From an uncultured Novosphingobium sp. (GTDB lineage: Bacteria > Pseudomonadota > Alphaproteobacteria > Sphingomonadales > Sphingomonadaceae): 23,656 bases of DNA. Shown piece after piece: positions 8,416 to 23,656 of the stretch. The notes beneath the pieces are model-generated. The model did not search any database and was not told the DNA's origin. It was given only the letters and a program-made list of their open reading frames with translations. Location of the stretch: the NCBI GenBank assembly GCA_937860195.1, contig CALMBN010000139.1, positions 1-23,656 of the forward strand, read 5' to 3'. The position numbers and the translations under genes are program-made. Within the stretch, counting starts at the first letter, position 1; the number at the start of each line of letters is the position of its first letter.

Positions 8416-9585
8416 TTAAACCAGCTGCTTGGCGGCCTTTTCCAACAACCGAGAGTCGCGCGGATTGCCCAGCAACGAGACGGTTCCGTCGCGATTGCGA
8501 CGAGCCACCAGCAAAGTGAACTCGTCCATCGGGGCGATATCGACCACAGGTCCCAACTGGCGCAGCTTTCGAGCCAAACCCGGACGCATAACGGTACGCG
8601 CAGCTGGTGACGAAGCCTTGCGGAGCGCCCGTTCAGCTGCGACCAGACCTTTCAGGCCGCCGGGGAATTCCTGCAGCACGGTTTGCAGCGCTCCGTGACC
8701 CAGACCGGTGCGCGCGGCGTGCTCCAGCACCAGTGCAAACTCGCTAAGCCGCGATTTAGCCCATCCGGGTCCGAACACTGCCTGGACCAGCGCGTGGAGC
8801 GGCGCAGCGGGGACGGCAGTTCCCATAGTCGCCGCCAGCATGGTTGAAAATTCACGCGGCCAGGCTCGCGCGGCAACGGCGAGGTCGTGCACGCGTGAAA
8901 CCGCCGCATAAAGCGCGCGGTGGCTGCGGTCTTCAGTCTGTTGCGCCTGAAGGGCCAAATCGCGGGCCGAACTCAGCAATCCGGCCAATCCCGGCGCCGG
9001 CCCAACACTCTGCACTTGCAACGCACCGGGTTGTGGCCGGTCGGCGTGCTTCCAACTGATTACGCCATAGACGAAATCGACCCGCTCCCCATCGCTCGAA
9101 AAGGGCAGCAGGATCGAGCGGTAGAGCACCAGGCGGTCGTCGCGATCGTCAAACTCGGCATCAAAGCCAACTGGTGCGCGATTGGCGATGACTTCAAGAC
9201 TGTGTTCGGTCAGTCGGCTGAGCAGGGACCGTTCTGGCACGTCGCCCAGATTGAAAAGGTCCCGATCCTTGCCGCATTCGGCGGCCAGTGCGTCACCGAG
9301 ATAGATCAAGGCAGGACGGTCCAGCCCGAGCGTAAAGTCAACCAAGGCACCATTGGTGCCGAGATCGCCCAGTTGTTCAGGGTACAACCCCTCGATCGGC
9401 GGCAATTCCCCCGCTTCAACCTGACTCAGCCACATCCGGTAGGCCCGGACCTGCATCCGCCGCTCGTCATCCGAGCCAGTGAACAGCGGGCCAAGGGTCG
9501 TGGTCTCTTCGCTCGCCGTATCGATGTCCATCGGCGCATCGGATTCACCCCGGCGGTTGATCTGGATATCGACAAGCGATGTCAC
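8416..9585 (-). CDS. PAS-like domain protein of unknown function
   Basis: A 389-residue protein, apparently cytoplasmic. Residues about 45-185 (RMWLSQVEAGELPPIEGLYP through VYGVISWKH) resemble the PAS_5-type sensory domain of alphaproteobacteria, with a run of strands ending in a YRSILLPF...FVYGVISW pattern. The rest is helical, with an alanine-rich segment (225-350) and a short strand-rich end. No kinase, cyclase or HTH motif is seen. The start shown is GTG 9583-9585 with CAGGA about 12 bases upstream; an in-frame ATG at 9531 (MDIDTASEE) is a real alternative. A CtrA-box-like sequence lies about 50 bases upstream (9635-9653). The PAS-like call is moderate; the function is unknown. Confidence 0.6.
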   Translation of the reverse strand: MTSLVDIQINRRGESDAPMDIDTASEETTTLGPLFTGSDDERRMQVRAYRMWLSQVEAGELPPIEGLYPEQLGDLGTNGALVDFTLGLDRPALIYLGDALAAECGKDRDLFNLGDVPERSLLSRLTEHSLEVIANRAPVGFDAEFDDRDDRLVLYRSILLPFSSDGERVDFVYGVISWKHADRPQPGALQVQSVGPAPGLAGLLSSARDLALQAQQTEDRSHRALYAAVSRVHDLAVAARAWPREFSTMLAATMGTAVPAAPLHALVQAVFGPGWAKSRLSEFALVLEHAARTGLGHGALQTVLQEFPGGLKGLVAAERALRKASSPAARTVMRPGLARKLRQLGPVVDIAPMDEFTLLVARRNRDGTVSLLGNPRDSRLLEKAAKQLV

Positions 9586-9791
9586 GTTCTGGATATTCCT
9601 GTGCCGAATGGACTGCGCACATCTACGCAGAATAGGGTAAAGATCGTTTTAAGCATGATGAACGGGCGCGCTCCCCGCTTTTTGCGGTGGAATGGCGCGG
9701 TAGCGACGTTGCGCGGGGTCCGGGAAAATCCCTAGGGTTGCACCGCGTCAGGATTGTCGGCGCAGCCAGCCGGGGCAAGGGCATAGTCAAA
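9586..9791. promoter_or_regulatory. Divergent intergenic region upstream of the CHASE2 operon and the PAS-like gene
   Basis: Some 206 bases separate the PAS-like gene (minus) from the CHASE2 gene (plus), so both promoters should lie here. The one recognisable element is the CtrA-box-like motif at 9635-9653. A short hairpin CCGC-TTTTT-GCGG lies near 9670. The plus-strand frame is open from a GTG at 9687, so the CHASE2 protein could be up to 35 residues longer. Confidence 0.5.
9635..9653 (-). promoter_or_regulatory. CtrA-box-like motif, copy 1
   Basis: Read on the minus strand the sequence is CTTAAAACGATCTTTACCC, that is TTAA, seven bases, then TTTACC, one base off the alphaproteobacterial CtrA consensus TTAA-N7-TTAA. 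It lies 50-68 bases upstream of the GTG start of the minus-strand PAS-like gene. A near-identical 19-mer lies upstream of the receiver-Hpt gene at 22787-22805 (16 of 19 bases equal). Confidence 0.55.
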
Positions 9792-12395
9792 GTGGTGGAA
9801 GCCGATCCAGCGCGACGCTCAGGCCTGCTCGCCGGTCTGTGGACCGCCTTGCGGCTCGATGGCTGGCGGCGGGTGGCGATCGGGCTGCTGCCGCTGACTG
9901 TCGCACTGATGTTGGGCGTTGCCCATGATCGCGGCTGGACCAGGTGGAGCGATGCTGCTGCCTTCGACATCATGACCCTTGACGCTCCCGGTCGTCCGCC
10001 TGCTGTGGTCATCATCGACAGCGACCGTGAATTCGAAGCGCGTGGAACGGGCCGCCATGCCGAACTGGTTCAGGCGGCATTGGCTCTGGGCGCCACCCGG
10101 GTTGCGTTCCGGCTGGACCCCGGCCTTGATATTGCTCGTGACGGATTTGCATCAGGCAAGGTCATTGTGGCTCGCCCGGTGTCCAAAGTGCCGGGCAAGC
10201 CAGTCTGGCAATTGACAAAGCCGCCTCCGAACCCAGGCATAACGAGTGGTGCGCGGGTCCTGGCCGCGGCCGAACGCGGCCTACACCGTGCCCAACTGAT
10301 GGCTCTTCCGGGATCACCGGGACCGATCCCGCTATTTGAAACTGCCGCAGCGGGGCGCGAGCCGATCGGCGAACCCTATTGGCTGCGGCTGACCCGCCGC
10401 CAGAATTTGCCTCGGTTCGAAGCCAGCCAGGTCTTGTCAGGCGAAGCGATAGAAGCGGCGCTCAAGGGCATGGTTGTGCTGGTCGAGCCGCCGCAAGCCG
10501 CGCGCCCGGTGACTGTTGCCAGTCCGCGCGATGTTCCGGGTTCTGTTGGAACGCTTACCGACTACAACGCACTGGCGATCCAGACCTTGATTGACCGGCG
10601 CGAAGTTCGTTCATTGGGAACCGCACAATCGGCTTTGTTGCTGGTGCTGTTCGCGCTGGTCTCGGGGTTGATTTACCTTCGCTCGGATCCAAAGCGGATC
10701 ATGCCATTGCTGCTGCTGGCAAGTTTGACGGCGATTGGGGCGGGCACCTGGTTGGCGCTCGAATATGCCGGCGTGCTGCTTCCAGTCACAGCGTTGGTGC
10801 TGGCTCAGCCGCTGGCTGCCCTGCTGGTTCTGCATCGCGCCGAATTGAGTGAAGATCGCAATCTCCGGCGCTTTGTCACCCAGACAATCAACCTATCCTC
10901 GCACCAGGTGCTGCTCAAGGATCTTGGCCGGATGTCGCAATTTCTGGCCGAATCGGCGACTGGTCTGGGGATTGACCAGTCCCTGCTCTTCGAGGTGCGC
11001 GGCAACCAGCTCCTGGTATTGGAATCAAGCTACGCTTTGTCGGATGAAGCACTGGGTGACCGCCGCAGGCTGCGCGCGCTCTTGCGCCGAGCGCGGCGGG
11101 CCTCGGTGCCGATCGATGCCGCTGCGTTGGTGCCGGACTGGCCGGGTGCCGCATGGCTGGCCGCATTGGGGCCTGCGCAAGGCGAGGTGTACTGGCTCTA
11201 TGGCGTTCCCGAAGGGCAGTCGGTCACGCGGGCTCTTTCGACAGCCGCTTCGCTCGCCGCCGATTACCGGGCGATGCAGCAACTGCGCGCCGATCTGAGC
11301 GCCGGGGCCGACCGTCGCCGTTCTTATCGGCCAGCAGATGAATGGGCCGGCGGCGCCGTGAAGCTGATTGCCGGCCACGGAGAACAGGTCTCAACCGGCC
11401 TCGACCGACTGGAAACTGCGGTCATGGTGTTCCATCCGATCGGTTTCCCGATTCATGCCAATGCTGCAATGGGCAATCTGTTCGGGCAACTTGATCTGTC
11501 GCTCACTGAAACGACCCTTCCGTCCTTGCTCAAGGCGCTTACCCGGCTTGATCAGGCCCGGATTGATGCCGCAGTGCGCGATTTGTTGCTCCATGGCGGT
11601 GAAATGCGGGTCGATGCGCGAGAGATCGATACCCGGTCCCGGCAACTTCGGGTTGCGGTGGCGCGCGAAGCCGCCGGGGGCCGTCCGCTTGCACTGGTGG
11701 TTGAAGCGATTGATGTGAGCGAGCTGCGCCGCTTGGCGCAATTGCGGCTCAACCTGTCGGGGCTGGTCGATGTCAGCATCCGCAATGATCTCGATGCCAT
11801 CGGGTTTGCATTGGCGGCGGCAGGCAGTGGGCGGCTTGATGCCCTGCGCATAGCCAGGGCCCATGGCCAGATCGGGCAGGCGGTTGGCCGTGCTACCGAA
11901 CGGCTTGATGCTTTGACCCCGCACCTCCATCCGGTCCCCGGCGATGCCAGAGGCGAGTGTTTCCCGCTTGATGCAGCCGTGATCGTCGAGGAGGCCTGCG
12001 GCCGGGTTGCGGCTCTGGCGCGAGAACTCAGCGTAACGATAAAGGCCAGCCGCCCGTCGATTTCCGGCTTTACCATCGCCGACCCCAGGCTTCTGGCCGA
12101 CATGGTTGAGGCCATGATCCGGATTGTTCTGGCGGATTCGCCCCCTGGCGAAGCGATCGTGCTCGATGTGACCGAGCTCGAAGGCAAGACCAGATTGAGC
12201 GTTTCTGGCGGGGTCGGGATGGCTTTTGAACGGCTCTATGCTGCGCTTGAGGCCCCGGCTGACAAGGCTCCAGGGCCATTCCGTGCCATTGTCGAAGGGA
12301 TGGCCGCTGCGGTCACCTGGGGTGCGGTGGTTTCCTATTCGAGCCGGGTCGGCAAAGGTTATCGCTTCACCATCGAAATGCGGCGGATTGGCTAA
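9792..12395 (+). CDS. CHASE2-domain membrane sensor with degenerate histidine-kinase-like C-terminus
   Basis: An 867-residue inner-membrane sensor from GTG 9792 (AAGGG about 10 bases upstream). One hydrophobic segment (27-45) leads into a periplasmic CHASE2-like domain (about 50-275), with FDIMTLDAPGRPPAVVIIDSD early and Y-N-A-L-A-I-Q-T-L-I-D-R at its end. Three membrane segments (280-350) follow, the usual CHASE2 layout. The cytoplasmic part has a GAF/PAS-like stretch, a PAS-like region (540-640), then helices where the phospho-acceptor region should be: SGLVDVSIRNDLDAIGFALA. Here the H of the H-D-L box is N (about residue 665). The ATPase-like region lacks a clear N box and has only S-G-G-V-G-M-A where D-x-G-x-G is expected. 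It is therefore probably not an active kinase. Its TAA overlaps the next ATG by one base. Confidence 0.8.
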   Translation: MVEADPARRSGLLAGLWTALRLDGWRRVAIGLLPLTVALMLGVAHDRGWTRWSDAAAFDIMTLDAPGRPPAVVIIDSDREFEARGTGRHAELVQAALALGATRVAFRLDPGLDIARDGFASGKVIVARPVSKVPGKPVWQLTKPPPNPGITSGARVLAAAERGLHRAQLMALPGSPGPIPLFETAAAGREPIGEPYWLRLTRRQNLPRFEASQVLSGEAIEAALKGMVVLVEPPQAARPVTVASPRDVPGSVGTLTDYNALAIQTLIDRREVRSLGTAQSALLLVLFALVSGLIYLRSDPKRIMPLLLLASLTAIGAGTWLALEYAGVLLPVTALVLAQPLAALLVLHRAELSEDRNLRRFVTQTINLSSHQVLLKDLGRMSQFLAESATGLGIDQSLLFEVRGNQLLVLESSYALSDEALGDRRRLRALLRRARRASVPIDAAALVPDWPGAAWLAALGPAQGEVYWLYGVPEGQSVTRALSTAASLAADYRAMQQLRADLSAGADRRRSYRPADEWAGGAVKLIAGHGEQVSTGLDRLETAVMVFHPIGFPIHANAAMGNLFGQLDLSLTETTLPSLLKALTRLDQARIDAAVRDLLLHGGEMRVDAREIDTRSRQLRVAVAREAAGGRPLALVVEAIDVSELRRLAQLRLNLSGLVDVSIRNDLDAIGFALAAAGSGRLDALRIARAHGQIGQAVGRATERLDALTPHLHPVPGDARGECFPLDAAVIVEEACGRVAALARELSVTIKASRPSISGFTIADPRLLADMVEAMIRIVLADSPPGEAIVLDVTELEGKTRLSVSGGVGMAFERLYAALEAPADKAPGPFRAIVEGMAAAVTWGAVVSYSSRVGKGYRFTIEMRRIG

Positions 12396-12772
12396 TGAAC
12401 CAGAAGATACTCTTGATCGATGACGATGATCTGTTGTGCGAGGTGCTGGCCGACTTCCTCGAAATGTCAGGCTATGGTGTGATCCGCGCCGCCGATGGAC
12501 GAGAGGGATTGGCCCGGCTTGATGATGGCGCACCGTTCGATCTGGTGCTGCTTGATCTGCTGATGCCGGAAATGGACGGATTGCGGTTTCTGGGCGTGTT
12601 GAGTGAAAGCGGTCGCGCGGTGCCGCCGGTGCTGGTCCTGTCGGCCTCGGCCACCGCCAGTGTGGTCGAAGCGCTCGATTTTCCGAGCGTTGCCGGAATT
12701 GTTCGCAAGCCGGTTCAACCCGCAGCGTTGCTCGAAAAGATTGCTGCGCTCATCGAACCCGCAAAGGGCTGA
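12395..12772 (+). CDS. Single-domain response regulator
   Basis: A 125-residue stand-alone receiver domain. The acidic pocket is D10-D11 in LLIDDDD, the phospho-acceptor is Asp54 in VLLDLLMPEMDG, the switch residue is Ser83 in VLSASA, and the conserved lysine is Lys105 in V-R-K-P. No output domain follows. The start overlaps the stop of the CHASE2 sensor (TAATG), so the two are a translated pair. Since the sensor appears to lack a phospho-acceptor histidine while this receiver looks fully functional, the phosphate probably comes from another kinase or phosphotransfer protein; the receiver-Hpt protein at 22013-22762 is one candidate. Seven bases separate its stop (12770-12772) from the CapC-like gene, suggesting one operon. 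Confidence 0.92.
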   Translation: MNQKILLIDDDDLLCEVLADFLEMSGYGVIRAADGREGLARLDDGAPFDLVLLDLLMPEMDGLRFLGVLSESGRAVPPVLVLSASATASVVEALDFPSVAGIVRKPVQPAALLEKIAALIEPAKG

Positions 12773-12778
12773 CAGCTG

Positions 12779-15292
12779 GTGCTGCCGATTTTTCCCGAAG
12801 GCGCGTTGACCAGTTCGGTCATCACCACGGTGTGGGTCGGGGTTTTCGTGCTGGCCTTTTTCAACCTGCGGTTTGGCTGGGTTATGTCCGGGTTGGTGGT
12901 GCCGGGCTATATCGTGCCACTGCTGGTATTGCGTCCGTTCGCGGCAGGCGTGATCGTGGTAGAGGCGGTCCTGACCTACCTCATCGCATATTTTTTCTCA
13001 GAACGGTTTTCACGCGGGCGCTACAATGCGCTGTTTGGGCGTGACCGGTTCATGGCCCTGATCCTCGCCAGCATCGCGGTGCGCCTGACCTTCGATGGCT
13101 GGCTTTTACCGCAAGCAGCAGAGTGGCTGTCGCGGCGTTATGACTGGCAATTCGATTGGCACAGCAATCTGCAAAGCTTCGGCCTGGTGGTGATTTCGCT
13201 GATGGCCAATCAGTTCTGGAAGCCGGGTCTGGCGCGGGGTTTGATTGCAGCAGCCGTGACCATCGGTCTGACCTGGCTGATCGTGCGGTATGGCTTGATG
13301 GAGTTCACCAATTTCCGCCTCAGCGGGGTGACCTATGTATACGAGGGGCTCGCCAGCTCGATTCTGGCCAGCCCCAAGGCCTATATCATCCTGGTTCTGA
13401 CTGCCTTCATCGCTTCACAGATGAATGTCCGGTACGGTTGGGACTTTTCGGGCATTCTGATCCCGGCGCTGATCGCCTTGCAATGGTATCAGCCAACCAA
13501 GGTGCTCAGCTCGATTGTTGAAGCGGGGGTGATCTATCTGCTGGCCATCGCGGTTATGAAGTTACCGCTTTTTGCCAGCATGACGATCGAGGGTTCGCGC
13601 AAGCTGGTGCTGTTTTTCAACGTCAGTTTTGTCTACAAACTGGTGCTTGGCCACGGACTCGGGTTGCTCGCACTCGATGTCAAGACAACGGATTTTTACG
13701 GGTTTGGCTATCTGCTTTCGACTCTCCTGGCGATCAAGGCTTACGACAAGAACATCTTCCCGCGAGTCATGCGCAATACGCTGGAAGTGTCGATTGCCGG
13801 TGCAGTTGCTGGCAATCTGGCGGGATTCGGGCTCGCCATTCTGCTCCCGGCCAATTCTGCGGCAGTGGCTGCACGGGTCAAATCCGCTTCCGGCCAGGAA
13901 ACCGGATACTTGCTTGCCGCCGCTGTTGGCGATGGGCATTTGCACAAAGCCGGTATTCCCGGTGTCGCGCTGAAAGCTTCGGAACTGCGGGCGCTGGGTG
14001 ATGCCATTCAGTTGCTGGAAAGTGGAGCCAGACCCGATCTGGTTGCACCGGCAATGCAGCAGGAAGGGTTCCTGATGTCACCACAGAGCGACGGAACCTG
14101 GGCGCTGTCTCGTGCTTCCGAAGGCCAGCGCGATCTGCTGGTGTTCAACCCTGCGGCCAGCCGCCGCCTTGCCGTTATCGCGGTCGATCCAGCGCGTCAG
14201 CCGGGCCTCGCAGCGGCATCGTTGGCGCTGTTTGCGTCACAACGCGCGCGCTGGCTGGTCGTTTCAGGATCAAATCCGGAAGCGGGCGATGCCAAGCGCT
14301 CGCTGATCGGCGTGTTGCGCAAGAATGCGCACCCGGACGAACTGGCAGTGGTGGCCGGAGCCGGAGAAACCCCCCGGCTCGAACTGGGCGGCGGTGCTGC
14401 TGCATCGCTCGATCTGGCAGTTCTGCGCGGCCAGTTGCCAGGCCTGTCCGTGCGGTTCGCGCTGGAAGGCACAGTCAACCGGGGCGAATTGGTGCTTGGC
14501 GGGACGCAGCTGGTGCTGCTCGCTTCACCAGCGACAGTTGCGAATGATCTTGTGCCGGAATGCCGGATCGAGGTTACCAGGCCGGCCATTGACGCAAGGC
14601 TTGACCTCGCCCAGCTGGCTTTTCTGAGATTCGAGGTGGTTGAGCCGGTATTGGCCGGGCTCAGTGCCAAAGCCGGTCTGCCAGAAGTTGCGCGGCGCAA
14701 CGCGGCTCTGGCCGGATGGGAGCTGGGACCCTGTGATCTGGACGGAAAACGCCAATGGCGCCTGGCCTGGCCTGACGGGACGGACAGCACCTTCTTCTTC
14801 ACTCCTGGCGCCGAAGGTGACCGAATCGTCCAGACCGAAGGCAGTTCGCGCCGTCTGATTAGCACCGCAGCGGTGCTGCATGCCCGCTGGAACAGCAGTG
14901 TGCTTATGATCGCCGCTGATGATGATCGGCTGGCCGGATCGCAACGTAGTCCCTTTGGTGTTGTCAGTCAGGCAGTGCTCCGGGCCGGATCACCGGGGTC
15001 GGCGCGCCTGATCCAATTGCGCAAGTCCCCCGCCGGTTCTCCCCCGGTTGCCGGGGCAATCGCGCTGGTTCCAGACCTGATCGAGCGCAACAGTAACTGG
15101 CTTGGCCAAATGCGCGCGCTGGCGGATATCATCGGCTTGCCGGCAACTGTGGTCGATCGAACCCGAGCGACAGCCGGCCTGGAAATTGCCCCAAACATGT
15201 CGATCCGTTACTTTTCCGAAACCGGACGAGGTAGGCACGCTACGTTTTGGCTGGTCCCAGAACCGGCCAAGCTGCGGGAGTCGAAACCGTGA
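12779..15292 (+). CDS. Tandem-duplicated CapC/PgsC-like membrane protein with C-terminal soluble domain
   Basis: PgsC is the small membrane subunit of poly-gamma-glutamate synthase, about 150 residues. This 837-residue protein contains two PgsC-like units. In unit 1 (about 18-172), SGLVVPGYIVPLLVLRPF then FGRDRFMALILASIAVRL match PgsC GLVVPGYLALVFNQP and YGRRKFAATLI, and its second half is FGLVVISLMANQFWKPG. Unit 2 (about 202-357) has YGWDFSGILIPALIALQW and FGYLLSTLLAIKAYDKN. Residues 360-837 form a soluble, presumably periplasmic region with no membrane segment. Part of it (671-750: P-G-A-E-G-D-R, A-R-W-N-S, R-L-I-Q-L) resembles the hydrolase-like protein two genes downstream but without its histidines. 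The start is GTG 12779. The stop overlaps the next GTG by 4 bases. Confidence 0.82.
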   Translation: MLPIFPEGALTSSVITTVWVGVFVLAFFNLRFGWVMSGLVVPGYIVPLLVLRPFAAGVIVVEAVLTYLIAYFFSERFSRGRYNALFGRDRFMALILASIAVRLTFDGWLLPQAAEWLSRRYDWQFDWHSNLQSFGLVVISLMANQFWKPGLARGLIAAAVTIGLTWLIVRYGLMEFTNFRLSGVTYVYEGLASSILASPKAYIILVLTAFIASQMNVRYGWDFSGILIPALIALQWYQPTKVLSSIVEAGVIYLLAIAVMKLPLFASMTIEGSRKLVLFFNVSFVYKLVLGHGLGLLALDVKTTDFYGFGYLLSTLLAIKAYDKNIFPRVMRNTLEVSIAGAVAGNLAGFGLAILLPANSAAVAARVKSASGQETGYLLAAAVGDGHLHKAGIPGVALKASELRALGDAIQLLESGARPDLVAPAMQQEGFLMSPQSDGTWALSRASEGQRDLLVFNPAASRRLAVIAVDPARQPGLAAASLALFASQRARWLVVSGSNPEAGDAKRSLIGVLRKNAHPDELAVVAGAGETPRLELGGGAAASLDLAVLRGQLPGLSVRFALEGTVNRGELVLGGTQLVLLASPATVANDLVPECRIEVTRPAIDARLDLAQLAFLRFEVVEPVLAGLSAKAGLPEVARRNAALAGWELGPCDLDGKRQWRLAWPDGTDSTFFFTPGAEGDRIVQTEGSSRRLISTAAVLHARWNSSVLMIAADDDRLAGSQRSPFGVVSQAVLRAGSPGSARLIQLRKSPAGSPPVAGAIALVPDLIERNSNWLGQMRALADIIGLPATVVDRTRATAGLEIAPNMSIRYFSETGRGRHATFWLVPEPAKLRESKP

Positions 15293-16116
15293 GCGGCGAA
15301 TCGCGCGCCTGGATATCGCTGAGCGGACTGGGCCGAACCCTGATCTGGCTGGCCCTGATCGGCCTTGTGGCCATCCTGGGCCAGCAAGCTGGATTTGGGG
15401 TGCACACTTTGCTGCGGTTGACTGAGGCGAACGGCGGTGAGGTCAGCCGGATTGCGCGGCGGGTGATCGCCTATCGGCTTGACCGGGTCCGTCCGACGGT
15501 GTTCCGCTTCAGCCAGCCGGTCAGTGCCACCCGCATCCTGACGCAACCAATCCTCGCACAGGGATCGGCCGTACCGGGCAAGGCCTGGTCCTATTCGGTT
15601 CGGGTCGAACTGCTCGACGAACGCGGTGGAATCGTTAGCGTTCACGAAGTGTATTCACGCAGCGTGCTGTTCGAATCGAGCGGCAAGCGCCGCGGTCCGG
15701 TTCAATATTACCGGGGCTCTGACGACCAGGTCGCCACAGCGGACGAAGTCAGAATTGCCGCCGACCGCCCGATCTCTGCGATCAGGGTCGTGTCGGGGAC
15801 GGTTGATCCTGGTGTGATTGCGATCGACATCAGGGTTGGGGAACGACGCCCGCTGACCTCAGCTGCGGCTGATTCGGCATTTGTCAGATTCAATCCGGAG
15901 GATCGCGCTCGGCTGGCGGCAGCCAACGCTTTCCCGCCAGAGCTGCTGACCCGTCAGGAGCGCAGTGCCATCGCCGTCAATCAATGGCGCCCGATTGGCC
16001 CGGTTGGAATCGACCGCCGCGACTATCAGATGATGGTGCTCTATGAAGAAGAGCAAGAGGACGGCGCGGGCGGATTCGAAGACGATGCTTCGGCAAGCGG
16101 GGAGGCCGGGGGATGA
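15289..16116 (+). CDS. Membrane-anchored periplasmic protein of unknown family in the CapBC-like operon
   Basis: A 275-residue protein that I do not recognise. It begins with a short cytoplasmic tail and one membrane segment (about 17-36, LIWLALIGLVAILGQQ), followed by a soluble part rich in strands (FRFSQPVSATRILTQP, YSVRVELLDERGGIVSVHEV), probably periplasmic. The C-terminus is strongly acidic (YEEEQEDGAGGFEDD) and low complexity. No catalytic motif is apparent; a structural or substrate-guiding role is a guess from position only. The GTG start overlaps the CapC-like stop (GTGA 15289-15292), and its stop overlaps the next gene (ATGA 16113-16116), so it is made in step with both neighbours and is likely a subunit of the same machine. 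Confidence 0.6.
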   Translation: MSGESRAWISLSGLGRTLIWLALIGLVAILGQQAGFGVHTLLRLTEANGGEVSRIARRVIAYRLDRVRPTVFRFSQPVSATRILTQPILAQGSAVPGKAWSYSVRVELLDERGGIVSVHEVYSRSVLFESSGKRRGPVQYYRGSDDQVATADEVRIAADRPISAIRVVSGTVDPGVIAIDIRVGERRPLTSAAADSAFVRFNPEDRARLAAANAFPPELLTRQERSAIAVNQWRPIGPVGIDRRDYQMMVLYEEEQEDGAGGFEDDASASGEAGG

Positions 16117-16973
16117 CGGTGCTTCGGCACCGCCTGACCTGGATTGTGATCGCAATGGTCCTGACTGCAACCGCTCTCGCCTTGCTCCTTCGCTCCCCTC
16201 GCAAAGAGGGCAGTTTCCACGTTCCCGATGCGGTCGAAGCGCGCGCTGCCGAAGCGATGTTTGCTCGTGCCTTGGCGAGCGGAGATCTGCGCGGATCAAC
16301 CGATTTCGAGCTTGAAGCGGGGCAACTTGAGCTGCCCGCCGGCCTTAGCCTGGCTGAGCCAAACGGAACCTGCACTGGGCGTGGTGCCTATCTGTTTCGC
16401 ACGGATCCGGCATCAATTCCGGTTGCGCTTACCGCACCGCATCGTGGGGCTGACCGGCTGACCGGTGAACTGGCCGGGGCTTTGTTCGAAGAGCATCCCT
16501 TCGCCGCCGCCGCGTGGAACAGTGCGCCGCGCCGAGGCGGCGAGGATTGTCCGCACTCGGGCGACATCGCGCGGCTGCCGACCCATTACCTGACCGCGTT
16601 TTCGCTGGCCTTTGCCCAACGCCATCCGCTTGGGCGCGTGATTCAGCTACACGGCTTTGACCACGCCAGACGCAACAGCCTTGCAGCGGCGGAAGCCGGG
16701 ATGATTCTCAGCGACGGCAGTCGCGATCCATCGGAGCGGCTGCTCGATCTGGCTGATTGCCTGACCGGGGCCTTTCCAGACACCAAGGTGGCAGTCTTCC
16801 CGATCGCTAGCGACGAACTCGGCGCAACCACAAACGCACAAGGCCGGGCCCTGCGCGCGGCCGGGTTTACTGGTTTCAGCCATCTTGAGCTGTCCGAATC
16901 AATGCGTCGCCGGTTGATGAGAAATGCCGAGGACCGGGCCAGACTGGCTGCTTGCTTCGGAGCGCGACTGTGA
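16113..16973 (+). CDS. Membrane-anchored hydrolase-like protein (possible metal-dependent polymer hydrolase)
   Basis: A 286-residue protein with one N-terminal membrane segment (8-27) and a periplasmic domain. Residues 104-118 (VALTAPHRGADRLTG) recall the PHGG...T.E segment of poly-gamma-glutamate hydrolases (zinc enzymes of the M14-like fold); HAPH-type metal ligand candidates are His110 and Asp114, with His148, His158 and His180 (QLHGFD) as further candidates. The motif AAAAWNSAPRRGGEDCPH at 131-148 is striking. A hydrolase that trims or releases the polymer would suit an operon with CapB- and CapC-like proteins, but the family assignment is tentative. Overlaps of 4 bases on both sides (16113-16116 and 16970-16973) tie it to its neighbours. 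The CapC-like protein carries a histidine-less relative of this domain. Confidence 0.55.
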   Translation: MTVLRHRLTWIVIAMVLTATALALLLRSPRKEGSFHVPDAVEARAAEAMFARALASGDLRGSTDFELEAGQLELPAGLSLAEPNGTCTGRGAYLFRTDPASIPVALTAPHRGADRLTGELAGALFEEHPFAAAAWNSAPRRGGEDCPHSGDIARLPTHYLTAFSLAFAQRHPLGRVIQLHGFDHARRNSLAAAEAGMILSDGSRDPSERLLDLADCLTGAFPDTKVAVFPIASDELGATTNAQGRALRAAGFTGFSHLELSESMRRRLMRNAEDRARLAACFGARL

Positions 16974-19900
16974 CCCCCGCCCTGCGCGCCAGCACCATGG
17001 CAGCAGCGCTGGAAGCCGAAGTCCCACAGCTTCAGCGGCCAGTCCAGTCCGATCTGCGCGACGAATTGCTGGCTTCACTCAGCGATGATCCACCTGAAAC
17101 TGCGGCTGAAATCGTTAAAGCAGCAATCGGTTGGACTTTGGCGCAATTCGTGGCGATCGAGGGCCTCCACACCAAGGCCGCCGCTTTCAACACAAGGCTG
17201 CGAAATGCGCACGATCCGGCTGAGCGCGATGCCGCAATTCTCGATTTGGCCGAGCAACTCGGGGCAGACGCGGCGCGGCTGGAAAGCGATGCCAGGGCGC
17301 TGAAGGTCCGGTTCGACGCTGATGCTGTGCTCGAGCGGTACCGGATCAGGGTTGGGATGCGCGAACGCGCCATTGCCTATGGGCTCGATCGCTGCGGAGA
17401 GCTGGTCGCGCGGGGGCTAGCCGAGGGCCTGATCGATCCGAGGTCCGGTCTGATCGGTGAGGCGCTCGCCAATCTGCTGGCGGAAGGGCGCGGCTGGCGT
17501 GGCGACCGGAGGATCCGGGTTGCGGCACACCGCGCCTTGCGCATGATTGTCGAGCGAGCGCGAGGCGGCCTTGACGGATTCTGGATCGATGCTGCAATTA
17601 TCGACACCCGCCGGACTGCACTCAACGCCGATGAAGATGCCTGGGCCCAAGTTGACGCCATGGCGACCTTGCAAGCGCTCTCGCCGACATCGTTCGAAGC
17701 AGTGATGCAGCGTCGCCTCCTGCCGAGCGCCGATCAGTCTGGCCCGCTGGCCCGCGACAACCGGTTGTTTGTGCGGCGCCAATTGGCGGGTTTGCTGGCC
17801 GATTCGAGTCATGCCCAGCCCAACCATGCCGATTGGCTCCAGCGGCTGGCCAACGATCAGGATGGCGCCGTCCGGCAGGCCCTGGCTTTTGCCTTGCCGC
17901 GCATGCCCGAGACTTTGGCCAGGGGCCTGTTTGCCAAACTGCGGGTCGATCGTGATCCGCAGGTTCGTGCTGCGTTGGTCTCGGTCCTGCCGGATGTGGT
18001 CGCGCTGGTTGGGGATGAGGTCTGTCTGGCCCTGCTCGAACGGTTGCTGGCCCGCGACCAGGATGAATTCGTGCTGAGACTTGGAATTGCAGCTGGACCA
18101 GAGCTGGTAGGGCAGCTGCTCAAGCAGGATGAGACCGGTGCGATAGCAACGGCTGCCCGGTTGCAAAAAGCGCTGACCAGCCTGCGCAAACGCAGTGATA
18201 ATGCCAAAGTCCGGCATTGGGCAGGCGAAGGCCGTGAAGCGTTGTGGTTGCTGGCCGACCCTGCAGCGAGGGCGATCGCCGAAGTTGTTGGTTCTTCGAT
18301 CGCGGGACAACGCGAAGGAGAGGCCAGGCGAATCGCGGCGCTCCGCGGCGACCAAGCGCTTGTTGGCCGGGTGTTGGCGGTGCTGGCCCAGAACGACTTC
18401 GGGTACGAATTTGCACCGGGACGGCGCCCCTCGCTGCGGCGCGGCGATCGTTTCGTCCGCCGCTGGTGGCGAATTCTCTACGAGCTGAAAACCAGCTCCA
18501 CCGATAAACGGCAAGCCTGGCTTCACACCATCGGCCGGAAATTCAGCGGCCCCATTATTGCGCCAGCCGGACATATGGCTGAGCTTGCCCCGACCAAGGT
18601 TCCGGGCGAGCCGCTGCATCTCGGCAGCGAAGCCGGGTGGCGCAACTTCGTGCCGCTGCTTGATCATGTCTTGTCGGCAGTCGATGTCGGACGTGAGTTC
18701 ACAATTTACACCAGCGAAGGGGTGACCCTGATAGTCCCGCCGCGCGGTCTGTTTGCCCGGATCCGCTGCTTTTTGAACCTGTCGCGCCAGTTTCCGGTCC
18801 TGGCCCCCCTTCGCAACGAGCCGGGGCATGACTACGTGGTCGCGCTACGCAAGGCCGGAGTCGGGATCGAATTCGCACCCCGGCTCGAGCCGGACGAAGA
18901 GCCCGATCCGCAGATCACCCGGCTGTTTTCGCTCGGGGCGGCGCTGCCGGCGATCCAGGGCATCATGCACGAGGCCTGGGCCTATTTCGCGACAGTCTAT
19001 GACAATACGCTGTTGCAGCTGGCCGTGTTTATTGTGCTGGCATCGACCTGGTTCGTCGGACGGCATGTCTGGCGCGGGCGGCTGATGCGGCGGCGGCGCG
19101 AGGGGATCGCGCTGGTGCTTGGCGGTTGGGGGACGCGCGGCAAATCGGGAACCGAACGGTTGAAAGCAGCACTGATCAGCGGGCTGGGCCACCCGCTTGT
19201 CTCCAAGACCACCGGCTGCGAGGCGATGTTCCTGCTTGGCCGGCCGTTTGGGGACTTGCAGGAAATGTTTCTGTTCCGGCCCTACGACAAAGCCACGATC
19301 TGGGAGCAGTTCGATCTGATCGAAACCACTCGCGGGCTTGGTGCGCGCGTGTTCCTGTGGGAATGCATGGGCCTCACCCCCAGCTATGTACGGGTGCTCC
19401 AGAAAGACTGGATGCGCGATGATATATCCACGATAACAAATACATATCCGGACCATGAAGATGTTCAGGGCCCAGCTGGCCGGAACATTCCAGAAGTAAT
19501 GACGCAGTTCATCCCGGATCGCGGAATTCTGCTGACGACCGAAGAGGAAATGTTTCCGATTCTGCGGGAAGCAGCAGAGGAATACGGCACCCGGATCCGC
19601 CCGGTTGGCTGGCGCGAGGCGGGCTTGATCCATCAAAGCTTGCTCGACCGGTTCCCTTACGCCGAGCATCCGTTCAACATCGCACTGGTAACTGCGATGG
19701 CCGATGAAATGGGCCTGGCAGCCGACTATGCGGTCAAGGAGATGTCTGATCGGGTCGTGGCCGACCTTGGCGTGCTCAAAATCTACCCGCGCGCGACGAT
19801 CAATGGCCGAACGCTCGAATTTGTGATGGGCAATTCGGCCAATGAGCGGTTCGGGGCGATGGGCAACTGGACCCGGATGGGATTTGTTGACCACGATCTG

Positions 19901-21100
19901 GCCAAGGACCCGGAGATTTTCGTCTCTACCGTCGTCAACAACCGCGCCGATCGGGTTCCGCGCAGTCGGGTCTTTGCGCGAATTCTGGTCGAAGATGTCG
20001 CGGCGGATCAGCATGTCCTGATCGGCTCCAACATCGACGGTCTGGTCGGCTTTATCGAAGAGAGCTGGAGGGACTACGCGGCCAAGCTGACCTTGTATGG
20101 CGATCCTGACCGCAGCCCTGGCGAGGTTTTCGCAGGATTGGCCAGGCATCAGCGGATTCCACTCGATCAGGATCAGCTGGCCGGGCGGCTGTCAGCGATG
20201 CTGGCGGCGCATTCGGACAAGATCAGTACGGCAGAGGCCATGACGGCAGCCAAAAGCGATCAGCTTGCGGCCGCGCTGGAAGGTGCCGGTGTTCCCAATG
20301 CCGCTGCGACCGCTGCCTATTTTTCCGATCAGCAGATCCTTCAGCGCGAATATGCGGCATTGGCGGCACGGATCAGCTCAGGCGGGGAGCAGGTGGCACT
20401 CGATGCCGAAGTCTGTGTGCTGCTCCGAAAATGCTTCATGGCCAAGCTGATCCCGGTGCGCGAATATTACACCCCGGGCGAAGACCTGATTCGCCTGATC
20501 GCTGAGAAATCACCGCCAGGCCTGATCAACCGGATCATGGGAATGCAGAACATCAAGGGCACCGGGCTGGACTTCGTCTACCGGTGGCAGGCTTGGGAGG
20601 CGTGCCACAGGGCTTGCCAGCAAGCGCTCGAGACTGATCCGGCGCAGATTCGCCGCGGGATTGATCTGCTTGGTGCGTTTCAGGAATACGGCGCGCTCAG
20701 CGACGGTCCGGTTCGTGAGACTGTCGCCGCGCTCAAAGCGCGCGGCGGGACGGACGAGGCCGGACTTGATGCCATTCTAACCCGGCTCGATGCGCAAATG
20801 GCTGCCTTGAGCAAAGAAAGCGCGGGCGAAAATGCCGGGGGCGGCGGTGGAAAGCTTGGTCAATGGGTCGAATCGTTCCTCGATTCGACGGATGCCGTCC
20901 GGCGCCGCCGCGCCGCCGACAAGATCTATCGCGAATTGATCGCCGAGCAGATCAGCAGCCAGCGCGCGGCCTATGAGTTGAAGAAGCTGACCGCGCGGCA
21001 AAAGGGCGGCTGGCTGGGTCCGTCGCTGATGTCGCTAGGTGAGTCCATGCGGGCATTGCTGCCCTGGATTGCAAGAGATTCGGCCAAAAAGCTGAATTGA
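16970..21100 (+). CDS. Giant CapB/PgsB-like amide ligase with N-terminal HEAT-like region
   Basis: A 1376-residue protein, against about 390 for PgsB. Residues 1-480 are helical with HEAT-like repeats (for example DRDPQVRAALVSVLPDVVAL near 327-346). An unassigned strand-rich region (about 485-645) and one membrane segment (680-697) follow, then a full CapB core (about 705-1050). The core's motifs are P-loop GTRGKSGT 721-728, K-T-T-G 746-749, W-E-C-M-G-L 797-802, TYPDHEDVQG 825-834, N-S-A-N-E-R 955-960 and NNRADRVPR 990-998. These match PgsB GIRGKSTV, KTTG, ECM, EDHMDVMG, FAANDA and NCRADRVDR in order. PgsB joins glutamates by ATP-dependent, Mur-ligase-like chemistry. The C-terminal 320 residues are helical and unassigned. 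The membrane anchor just before the ligase also occurs in PgsB. Start GTG 16970 overlaps the previous stop. The polymer substrate is unknown. Confidence 0.85.
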   Translation: MTPALRASTMAAALEAEVPQLQRPVQSDLRDELLASLSDDPPETAAEIVKAAIGWTLAQFVAIEGLHTKAAAFNTRLRNAHDPAERDAAILDLAEQLGADAARLESDARALKVRFDADAVLERYRIRVGMRERAIAYGLDRCGELVARGLAEGLIDPRSGLIGEALANLLAEGRGWRGDRRIRVAAHRALRMIVERARGGLDGFWIDAAIIDTRRTALNADEDAWAQVDAMATLQALSPTSFEAVMQRRLLPSADQSGPLARDNRLFVRRQLAGLLADSSHAQPNHADWLQRLANDQDGAVRQALAFALPRMPETLARGLFAKLRVDRDPQVRAALVSVLPDVVALVGDEVCLALLERLLARDQDEFVLRLGIAAGPELVGQLLKQDETGAIATAARLQKALTSLRKRSDNAKVRHWAGEGREALWLLADPAARAIAEVVGSSIAGQREGEARRIAALRGDQALVGRVLAVLAQNDFGYEFAPGRRPSLRRGDRFVRRWWRILYELKTSSTDKRQAWLHTIGRKFSGPIIAPAGHMAELAPTKVPGEPLHLGSEAGWRNFVPLLDHVLSAVDVGREFTIYTSEGVTLIVPPRGLFARIRCFLNLSRQFPVLAPLRNEPGHDYVVALRKAGVGIEFAPRLEPDEEPDPQITRLFSLGAALPAIQGIMHEAWAYFATVYDNTLLQLAVFIVLASTWFVGRHVWRGRLMRRRREGIALVLGGWGTRGKSGTERLKAALISGLGHPLVSKTTGCEAMFLLGRPFGDLQEMFLFRPYDKATIWEQFDLIETTRGLGARVFLWECMGLTPSYVRVLQKDWMRDDISTITNTYPDHEDVQGPAGRNIPEVMTQFIPDRGILLTTEEEMFPILREAAEEYGTRIRPVGWREAGLIHQSLLDRFPYAEHPFNIALVTAMADEMGLAADYAVKEMSDRVVADLGVLKIYPRATINGRTLEFVMGNSANERFGAMGNWTRMGFVDHDLAKDPEIFVSTVVNNRADRVPRSRVFARILVEDVAADQHVLIGSNIDGLVGFIEESWRDYAAKLTLYGDPDRSPGEVFAGLARHQRIPLDQDQLAGRLSAMLAAHSDKISTAEAMTAAKSDQLAAALEGAGVPNAAATAAYFSDQQILQREYAALAARISSGGEQVALDAEVCVLLRKCFMAKLIPVREYYTPGEDLIRLIAEKSPPGLINRIMGMQNIKGTGLDFVYRWQAWEACHRACQQALETDPAQIRRGIDLLGAFQEYGALSDGPVRETVAALKARGGTDEAGLDAILTRLDAQMAALSKESAGENAGGGGGKLGQWVESFLDSTDAVRRRRAADKIYRELIAEQISSQRAAYELKKLTARQKGGWLGPSLMSLGESMRALLPWIARDSAKKLN

Positions 21101-22762: not shown

Positions 22763-22786
22763 AACCACACCAGTCCTGCCCAATCA

Positions 22787-22805
22787 GGGTAAATATCGGG
22801 TTAAG
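22787..22805 (-). promoter_or_regulatory. CtrA-box-like motif, copy 2
   Basis: On the minus strand the sequence is CTTAACCCGATATTTACCC, that is TTAA, seven bases, TTTACC, one base off the CtrA consensus TTAA-N7-TTAA. It is 16 of 19 identical to copy 1 at 9635-9653, and in both cases it reads toward a minus-strand signalling gene a short distance away. Confidence 0.55.
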
Positions 22806-22847
22806 GGATGCTTGCTGCCAGACCTGGGGCAAATACGCAGTCCAGCG

Positions 22848-22907
22848 AAAGTTGCGCGGCGTAACGCACACCGGGACCGTGCCGCTCGAGTTGCGCTGCG
22901 CAACTTT
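22848..22907. repeat. Inverted repeat in the divergent intergenic region
   Basis: AAAGTTGCGC at 22848-22857 is the exact reverse complement of GCGCAACTTT at 22898-22907, with 40 bases between. The right arm also belongs to a compact palindrome, TTGCGCTGCGCAA at 22891-22903. The pair lies between the receiver-Hpt gene and the acyl-CoA dehydrogenase start, so it may be an operator for one of them or a structured leader. There is no T-run, so it is not a typical terminator. Confidence 0.5.
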
Positions 22908-22998
22908 GCGCGGTGCAGTTAACCGTGCGATTAAATTCCGGTTGACCGGTGCCCCGGACGGTGGATAGCCTTGGTAACCGTATTCGGAGAACCACGCC

Positions 22999-23115
22999 AT
23001 GTCGCTCGATCTGTTGCCCCGCACCGCTTACAACGAAGATCACGAGGCCTTTCGCCAGACCGTCCGCCGTTTCATGCAGGAAGAAATCGCACCGCATCAG
23101 GCCGAATGGGCCGAG
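22999..23115 (+). CDS. Acyl-CoA dehydrogenase, N-terminal fragment (cut at a probable assembly joint)
   Basis: A good ribosome binding site (GGAGA, 22986-22990) precedes an ATG and about 39-42 residues typical of the start of acyl-CoA dehydrogenases: MSLDLLPRTAYNEDHEAFRQ, then TVRRFMQEEIAPHQAEWAEAGI. These FAD enzymes oxidise acyl-CoA thioesters. After E-A-G-I the frame, without any stop, turns into an unrelated membrane transporter sequence, so only the very start of the dehydrogenase is present; the rest, about 340 residues in a normal family member, is missing. The end given is approximate, between 23111 and 23130. The most likely reason is a false join in the assembly rather than a real fusion gene. 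Confidence 0.75.
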
Positions 23116-23376
23116 GCCGGGATCGCGTTCCGACCGTCGATCGCCTGGAAGACGCTCGTGCCCGGCGCGATCGTCGGGACCTACCTGTCGCTCGTGTTCT
23201 GGCTCGGCGGCTTCAAGTGGGCCGACGCCTCGGTCGCGGCGGTCCTGAACCAGATGGCGACGATCTACATCCTGGTGCTGGCCCGGCTGGTGCTCGGGGA
23301 GACGATCGTGCCGCGGCAGGTGCTCGGGGCCGGCTTCGCGGTGGCCGGGGCGCTGGTGATCATGCTCACCCGTTGA
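23116..23376 (+). CDS. EamA/DMT-family transporter, C-terminal fragment
   Basis: About 83 residues in the same frame as the dehydrogenase start but of clearly different origin. They hold the last three membrane helices of an EamA (drug/metabolite transporter) protein: W-K-T-L-V-P-G-A-I-V-G-T-Y-L-S-L entering one helix, ADASVAAVLNQMATIYILVL as the next, then L-G-E-T-I-V-P-R and a final helix GAGFAVAGALVIML. The pattern N-Q-x-(A/S)-T-(I/L)-(Y/F)-I-L followed by L-G-E is a hallmark of the family's second repeat. Codon third positions here are almost all G or C, noticeably more so than in the rest of the window, which points to DNA from another organism joined at about 23115. Confidence 0.75.
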   Translation, partial: AGIAFRPSIAWKTLVPGAIVGTYLSLVFWLGGFKWADASVAAVLNQMATIYILVLARLVLGETIVPRQVLGAGFAVAGALVIMLTR

Positions 23377-23389
23377 TCACCGGCATGGG

Positions 23390-23656
23390 CTAGGGCCCAG
23401 CAAACGTCGGCACCAGCGTCCCGTCCGGTCGCCCCACCGGGACGTGGTCCCCGACGTAGTGCCCGCGGACCCAGGTCGTCCGCTCCGCGATCCGGGTCAA
23501 CAGCCCCTCGATCGTGGAGAACGACCACCGGAGCGCCGCTTCCTCCGGCACGATCCCGCCGACCGCGGTCCGCACGTGGTACCCGAGCAGCGTCCCGCCC
23601 GCCGCGTCGACCAGGAATTCGACCGGCAGGTCGCCATCAAGATGATCCGGCGCGGC
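23390..23656 (-). CDS. Unidentified protein, C-terminal part, running off the window
   Basis: On the minus strand a frame is open from the window edge to TAG at 23390-23392, giving 88 residues with no need for an internal start; a GTG at 23575 is available but unnecessary. The sequence (for example FLVDAAGGTLLGYHVRTAVG, and later T-T-W-V-R-G-H-Y-V-G-D-H-V-P-V-G) is soluble and shows no family I recognise. Codon use is very GC-rich like the preceding transporter fragment and unlike the sphingomonad-type genes, so it probably belongs to the same foreign piece. The stop codons of this gene and the transporter face each other 13 bases apart. Confidence 0.5.
   Translation of the reverse strand, partial: AAPDHLDGDLPVEFLVDAAGGTLLGYHVRTAVGGIVPEEAALRWSFSTIEGLLTRIAERTTWVRGHYVGDHVPVGRPDGTLVPTFAGP

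Follow-up and report, generated by a model that had tools for sequence, protein, structure and literature searches.

The window analyzed here, a stretch of 23,656 nucleotides (contig CALMBN010000139.1, assembly GCA_937860195.1), comes from an uncultured Novosphingobium sp. whose assembled genome measures 2.3 Mb and is 71% complete. It carries a locus that encodes large relatives of CapB and CapC, also known as PgsB and PgsC, together with an anchored hydrolase-like protein. The reading we favor, with moderate confidence, is that these proteins form a counterpart of the PgsB-PgsC synthase that spans the Gram-negative envelope and that not only makes a gamma-glutamyl polymer, probably poly-gamma-glutamate, but also guides, trims and exports it. 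An earlier note on this DNA had proposed a cell-envelope or secreted amide-linked polymer system and had left its product unnamed. The sequences and predicted folds agree with such a system, and a gamma-glutamyl product is likely because the fold of the hydrolase matches those of enzymes acting on glutamate amides, including poly-gamma-glutamate hydrolases.

The core of the locus consists of four genes at 12779-21100, and the coordinates bear out the chain of three 4-base overlaps described in that note:

12779-15292, plus strand: CapC2, GTG start, 837 residues; two fused CapC/PgsC membrane units (about 1-355) and degenerate zinc-hydrolase-like domains (about 400-600 and about 610-835)
15289-16116, plus strand: X, 275 residues; GTGA overlap with CapC2
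16113-16973, plus strand: Hyd, 286 residues; ATGA overlap with X
16970-21100, plus strand: CapB-large, 1376 residues; GTGA overlap with Hyd; helical-repeat part (about 1-660), membrane segment (about 679-697), PgsB-type ligase (about 690-1040) and extension (about 1060-1376)

The character given earlier to each product was also recovered. The doubled CapC-like membrane protein contains two PF14102 stretches; the anchored protein of no known family, X, has a single N-terminal membrane segment and no Pfam or NCBIfam match; the anchored hydrolase-like protein has a membrane segment and a fold match to glutamate-amide hydrolases; and all five PgsB motifs were located, in the PgsB order, in the 1376-residue CapB-like protein (GTRGKSGT at 721, KTTG at 746, WECM at 797, PDHEDV at 827 and NNRADRVPR at 990).

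The PgsB profile TIGR04012 matches CapB-large with 178 bits (E 2.4e-52) over residues 694-1047 of the 1382-residue frame that opens at 16952. This rules out a place outside the CapB family (the earlier note had named one outside the CapB/Mur ligase fold as a possible refutation), though the score is below the equivalog cut-off of 222.7 bits. Large-type proteins of relatives scored 170-197 bits in three cases and 188-207 in eight genomes, and none of the 12, the window's included, reached the cut-off; in genomes with a single CapC, classic CapB exceeded it in six of six (436-526 bits, frames of 405-462 residues). In an alignment of 25 rows, GxRGKSG, KTTG, WECM, PDHED and NNRxDR show no variation among the rows that reach these motifs. 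A search of the sequences of solved structures with CapB-large returned two weak rows and nothing useful.

Because its halves stand as separate genes in some relatives, CapB-large is, by sequence comparison, a fusion of a helical-repeat part with CapB. The halves are neighboring open reading frames (ORFs) of 677 and 719 residues at locus L041, 671 and 721 at L043, and 568 and 601 at L046, and they are also separate at L069 and L093. The N-terminal part matches HEAT_2 with 26.5 bits, just under the cut-off of 27.7, and a transmembrane-like segment directly precedes the P-loop. The C-terminal extension (about 1060-1376) contains an invariant GxQNIKG motif and matches no Pfam family. In a tree of the ligase part with 64 rows, the 16 labelled here as classic and the 48 labelled as large-type are split by a 100/100 branch. 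The 29 rows on the window's side group together (99/96) within those of other Pseudomonadota; this nesting is consistent with one transfer into the window's family, depending on the rooting and on the narrow choice of classic rows, which were drawn from a search with a Rhodothalassium protein or from the Methylovulum class.

PF14102 (CapC) scores 126.3 bits in CapC2, for a gathering score of 27. The score with TIGR04011 (PgsC), 60 bits, is under the cut-off of 96.45, as are those of two relatives (66.5 and 49.7). By profile comparison and a predicted structure with fold search, the tail of CapC2 contains degenerate domains related to Hyd: hhalign aligned Hyd with residues 422-530 (E 3.5e-5), and the Hyd profile matched the tail in nine of the CapC2 proteins of 30 relatives, with a best E of 3e-17. 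The metal motifs of Hyd are not present there. The PF05908 profile did not match CapC2, and a search of solved-structure sequences with this protein found none.

The AlphaFold model of Hyd has a predicted local distance difference test score (pLDDT) of 93.7. In a fold search its nearest neighbors were the N-formylglutamate amidohydrolases and the poly-gamma-glutamate hydrolases, two groups about equally distant from it in structure, and the five top VIA rows are, by name, families acting on glutamate amides; 2odf, among the top matches, is taken by us to belong with these enzymes by its family. Csd4 ranked lower. The predicted fold is that of the PF05908 poly-gamma-glutamate hydrolases. In 46 aligned rows H110, D151, H180, N241, H257, E259 and R265 are invariant, and D114 is present in at least 90%. 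A comparison by hhalign with a 28-row PF05908 profile aligned the conserved positions motif by motif, with a probability of only 28%, and that with one PF05908 sequence was weak. The Pfam search gave Hyd no match, PF05908 included, and its profile found none among the sequences of solved structures. Hyd, which has a single N-terminal membrane segment, is a putative membrane-anchored hydrolase of the N-formylglutamate amidohydrolase/poly-gamma-glutamate hydrolase fold. A true PF05908 hydrolase (190 bits) occurs on a contig of a gammaproteobacterial metagenome-assembled genome (L040:6034-6606), where CapB-large is followed directly by an M23-peptidase ORF and then by the hydrolase. One genome of the Oligoflexus phylum has its matches to X (23 bits) and Hyd in a single long frame (L092:4811-8785), which suggests a fused X-Hyd protein. 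In X of the window the transmembrane-like segment spans residues 13-31, and relatives were aligned in 15 rows.

Four further genes flank this core:

9687-12395, plus strand: degenerate (pseudo-) histidine kinase, 902 residues; opens the operon; membrane segments, PAS-like domain
12395-12772, plus strand: stand-alone response regulator receiver, 125 residues
21102-22016, minus strand: outer-membrane beta-barrel-like protein, possible export pore, 304 residues
22013-22783, minus strand: receiver-Hpt phosphotransfer protein, 256 residues (PF00072 and PF01627)

The stop of the pseudo-kinase and the start of the receiver overlap as TAATG (12393-12397), and only 6 bases separate the receiver from CapC2. 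The unit comprises at least six genes, and the operon starts two genes upstream of CapC2, at 9687. All genes of the locus have a single pattern of guanine plus cytosine by codon position (second position 0.40-0.55, third 0.65-0.71). A scan for promoters and terminators (5 promoter-like sites vs. 2.6 ± 1.2 in shuffled sequence; 14 terminator-like vs. 12.0 ± 4.1) was not used.

The pseudo-kinase has a weak PAS_4 match, under the cut-off (E 0.0056), and its Methylovulum counterpart matches HATPase_c with 36 bits. In 17 of 17 aligned rows an RNDLEAI-type motif without histidine occupies the expected H-box, whose place was taken from the alignment. The same histidine-less motif is common to the operon versions of the window's family, Methylovulum and Thiohalobacter. 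The receiver scores 73.6 bits with PF00072, and the region of its phospho-acceptor Asp is kept in orthologues. In Qipengyuania/Erythrobacter loci (L030, L027, L032) the frame upstream of the minus-strand receiver-Hpt resembles the ATPase end of a kinase, as in a hybrid kinase; no such part was found upstream of receiver-Hpt in the window (22783-23656, minus strand).

The barrel-type protein has a hydrophobic N-terminus, ends in YRF or FRF in 17 of 17 aligned rows and matches no Pfam family over cut-off. It may be an outer-membrane barrel with a role in export. The window's family keeps this small separate gene even in loci where it has moved to the opposite end (L024, L041, L043). Outside that family, large ORFs with a barrel-like end precede CapB (L058, L042, L038, L046, L047, L040). 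That the small barrel might be a cut-down form of the large barrel-like end was considered and is not favored, as no kinship was found.

Gene order was compared by profile searches of stretches from 30 doubled-CapC genomes besides the window's, one of them (G1275) cut by its contig. All 17 relatives of the same family, at least five of which share contigs with loci used in building the profiles, have pseudo-kinase, receiver, CapC2, X, Hyd, helical-repeat part and CapB in order; a failure of these genes to co-occur, the other refutation named earlier, is therefore not what is seen. The barrel-type gene lies beside the operon in all 17 (15 at 299-495 bits, two at 125-130) and receiver-Hpt in 15. 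Ten stretches came from other Pseudomonadota, five each from the family designated f43 and the Methylovulum class. X was found in nine, Hyd in eight, a gene with a barrel-like end in six, and the helical-repeat part or CapB in six; one of the last six is an end-cut CapB at 28 bits, and in three of the ten the contig ends before those genes. A true departure is G253, in which CapC2 and X are followed by an ORF of 1809 residues, with no Hyd in the stretch. The three stretches from the Oligoflexus phylum have Hyd in all, X weakly in two (23 and 28 bits) and CapB in one. The versions in other Pseudomonadota and in the Oligoflexus phylum are related to the window's operon and less regular. CapB was present in the stretch in 23 of the 30 genomes, and the other seven encode a TIGR04012 homologue elsewhere, under cut-off. 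The Thiomargarita-labelled genome is another exception: its CapC2 (L060) and CapB-large (L037) are not neighbors, and neither X nor Hyd was detected next to them.

In samples that overlap and include the genome at their center, CapC over cut-off was found in 11 of 196 genomes of the window's order (10 doubled, one single), 17 of 397 of its family and six of 398 of its phylum (all doubled in both), 11 of 369 of the Methylovulum class (six doubled, five single) and four of 58 of the Oligoflexus phylum (three doubled, and one with one domain near a contig end). In the last two groups the CapC frames fall into two sizes, 158-226 residues for single and 785-1096 for doubled forms. None of 10 listed genomes of the same genus gave a CapC match, which indicates a patchy distribution within the genus. 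A scan for CapB-large yielded 24 loci, with the labels Erythrobacteraceae, Thiomargarita, Thiohalobacter, Methylovulum, Gammaproteobacteria, Marinicella, Oligoflexus and Cellvibrionales. Doubled CapC was present in the genomes of six of the seven loci outside Erythrobacteraceae; the genome behind L040 gave no CapC match.

In the mechanism that we propose, the ligase part of CapB-large, at the inner membrane, would use ATP to activate the carboxyl group of glutamate or of the growing gamma-glutamyl chain for formation of amide bonds, and the doubled CapC core would be both its synthase partner and the exit through the membrane. On the periplasmic side, the metal-less domains of the CapC2 tail may keep hold of the chain as it emerges or steer it, and Hyd, anchored beside them, would cut gamma-glutamyl bonds and so set the chain length or free the chain. 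Release would then occur through the outer-membrane barrel, which has a small gene of its own in the window's family and a large one within the operon in several other groups. Regulation presumably falls to the pseudo-kinase, the receiver and the Hpt protein. Synthase-dependent polysaccharide secretion combines a synthase, a periplasmic hydrolase and an outer-membrane pore, and by analogy the overall logic proposed here resembles that of such systems.

In an alternative with a minor but appreciable chance of being correct, the product is an amide polymer other than poly-gamma-glutamate, made of another amino acid, of mixed composition or of a diacid and a diamine, with Hyd matched to that bond. 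The long 100/100 branch between this ligase part and classic PgsB and the scores of all 12 large-type proteins under the equivalog cut-off leave room for another product, and these points, with the near-equal distance of Hyd from formylglutamate amidohydrolases and poly-gamma-glutamate hydrolases, speak for this alternative. On the other side are the unchanged ligase motifs and the glutamate-amide families, by name or presumed family, in the five top VIA rows for Hyd. Kinship of the ligase, the fold of Hyd and the PF05908 hydrolase two genes after CapB-large at L040 together point to gamma-linked glutamate. It is unlikely that no free polymer is made and that short glutamate chains are instead attached by the ligase to some component of the envelope (a peptidoglycan stem, lipid or protein) and trimmed there by Hyd, since the doubled CapC core and the barrel-type gene suit secretion better and Csd4 ranked under the glutamate-amide hydrolases. 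That the locus has decayed or has only a regulatory role, with no synthesis and with degenerate pseudo-kinase and pseudo-hydrolase domains, would account for the histidine-less kinase in 17 of 17 rows, the CapC2 tail without metal motifs and the patchy occurrence in the genus, but is very improbable because catalytic residues of CapB and Hyd that are invariant across aligned relatives, and an order kept in 17 of 17 same-family relatives, are not expected under decay.

Polymer-cutting enzymes, CapD and PgdS, belong to the wider Bacillus poly-gamma-glutamate system. With the Bacillus PgsBC(A/E) and CapBCA(DE) systems the gamma-glutamyl machine proposed here shares a CapB-type ligase with the same order of motifs and a CapC membrane core. 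It differs in that CapC is doubled and joined to hydrolase-like domains that lack metal motifs, CapB is extended and fused to a helical-repeat part, CapA is absent, both scores are under the equivalog cut-offs, and X, a built-in Hyd, barrel-type and signaling genes are added. PF09587 (CapA) was found beside CapC in none of 12 genomes (11 doubled, one single); away from CapC it exceeded the cut-off in five, and in the window's own incomplete genome it scored 21 bits, under cut-off. The absence of CapA at the locus thus stands. It is not in itself an oddity, because in the CapsuleFinder model of such capsules CapB and CapC are mandatory and CapA and CapE accessory (PMC5542703). Homologues of both mandatory parts are present here, as judged by the PF14102 and TIGR profiles rather than by the profiles and thresholds of CapsuleFinder. 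The same survey places poly-gamma-glutamate systems in most phyla, and some of the present loci may already be counted in it (PMC5542703).

Small capB-capC-capA genes, the known form cited in the earlier note, have counterparts in classic small capB-capC pairs that are also present in Proteobacteria. One classic pgsB-pgsC-TIGR04332 operon (L064), from the same bacterial order as the window, has a CapB identical to a Rhodothalassium salexigens record. There, unlike in the window, a 402-residue CapB over cut-off (435.9 bits) adjoins a single CapC (113.5 bits). Its third gene encodes the TIGR04332 "poly-gamma-glutamate system protein," which was rejected as an equivalent of X or CapC2 because hhalign found no kinship. 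With the PF05908 hydrolases PghP (3a9l) and YndL (5onj), Hyd shares the fold and the His/acid/His/Asn/Glu/Arg order; it differs by D in place of E, a membrane anchor and a gene alongside the synthase. N-formylglutamate amidohydrolases (2odf, 2q7s; PF05013) are small cytoplasmic enzymes of histidine breakdown and, unlike Hyd, have no linkage to a synthase.

As to position, the earlier note had placed the locus near the chromosome origin. This holds for the window, in which parA-parB lies upstream, and does not hold in general, with mnmE/parB near seven of the 24 loci, some of them on short contigs. At L025, L026, L033, L035, L036 and L044 the operon does not follow parB; it is found across the mnmE-parB cluster, at a distance of about 3-5 kb from mnmE. 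An ORF of 389 residues beside parB in the window (8416-9585, minus strand) is matched by neither Pfam nor NCBIfam, and the compared loci contain no relative of it.

A report on Novosphingobium PP1Y gives three ORFs for gamma-PGA (poly-gamma-glutamate) polymerases (PMC4059872), which stand outside the present comparison. The lipocone paper (PMC12419801), returned for "CapC," concerns "CapCone" domains and is unrelated. No description of this architecture was found in the open-licence PMC literature searched, a scope outside which most subscription papers lie. The parts and the chemistry are known; relative to that literature the architecture, as read from sequence, appears to be new. More tentatively, and with less assurance than for the gamma-glutamyl synthase itself, the operon may represent an undescribed class of Gram-negative amide-polymer secretion machine, in which a PgsBC-type synthase for a gamma-glutamyl or new polymer is organized like a polysaccharide secretion system: its membrane core would carry non-catalytic hydrolase domains as polymer guides, and a trimming hydrolase and an outer-membrane pore would be built in.

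The Bacillus model gives no account of how a polymer of the poly-gamma-glutamate type crosses a two-membrane envelope. The operon provides a conserved list of parts in named strains of Qipengyuania and Altererythrobacter, which opens the question of export to direct testing. If the proposal is true, the operon would also show that hydrolase domains without enzymatic activity can become components of a polymer channel.
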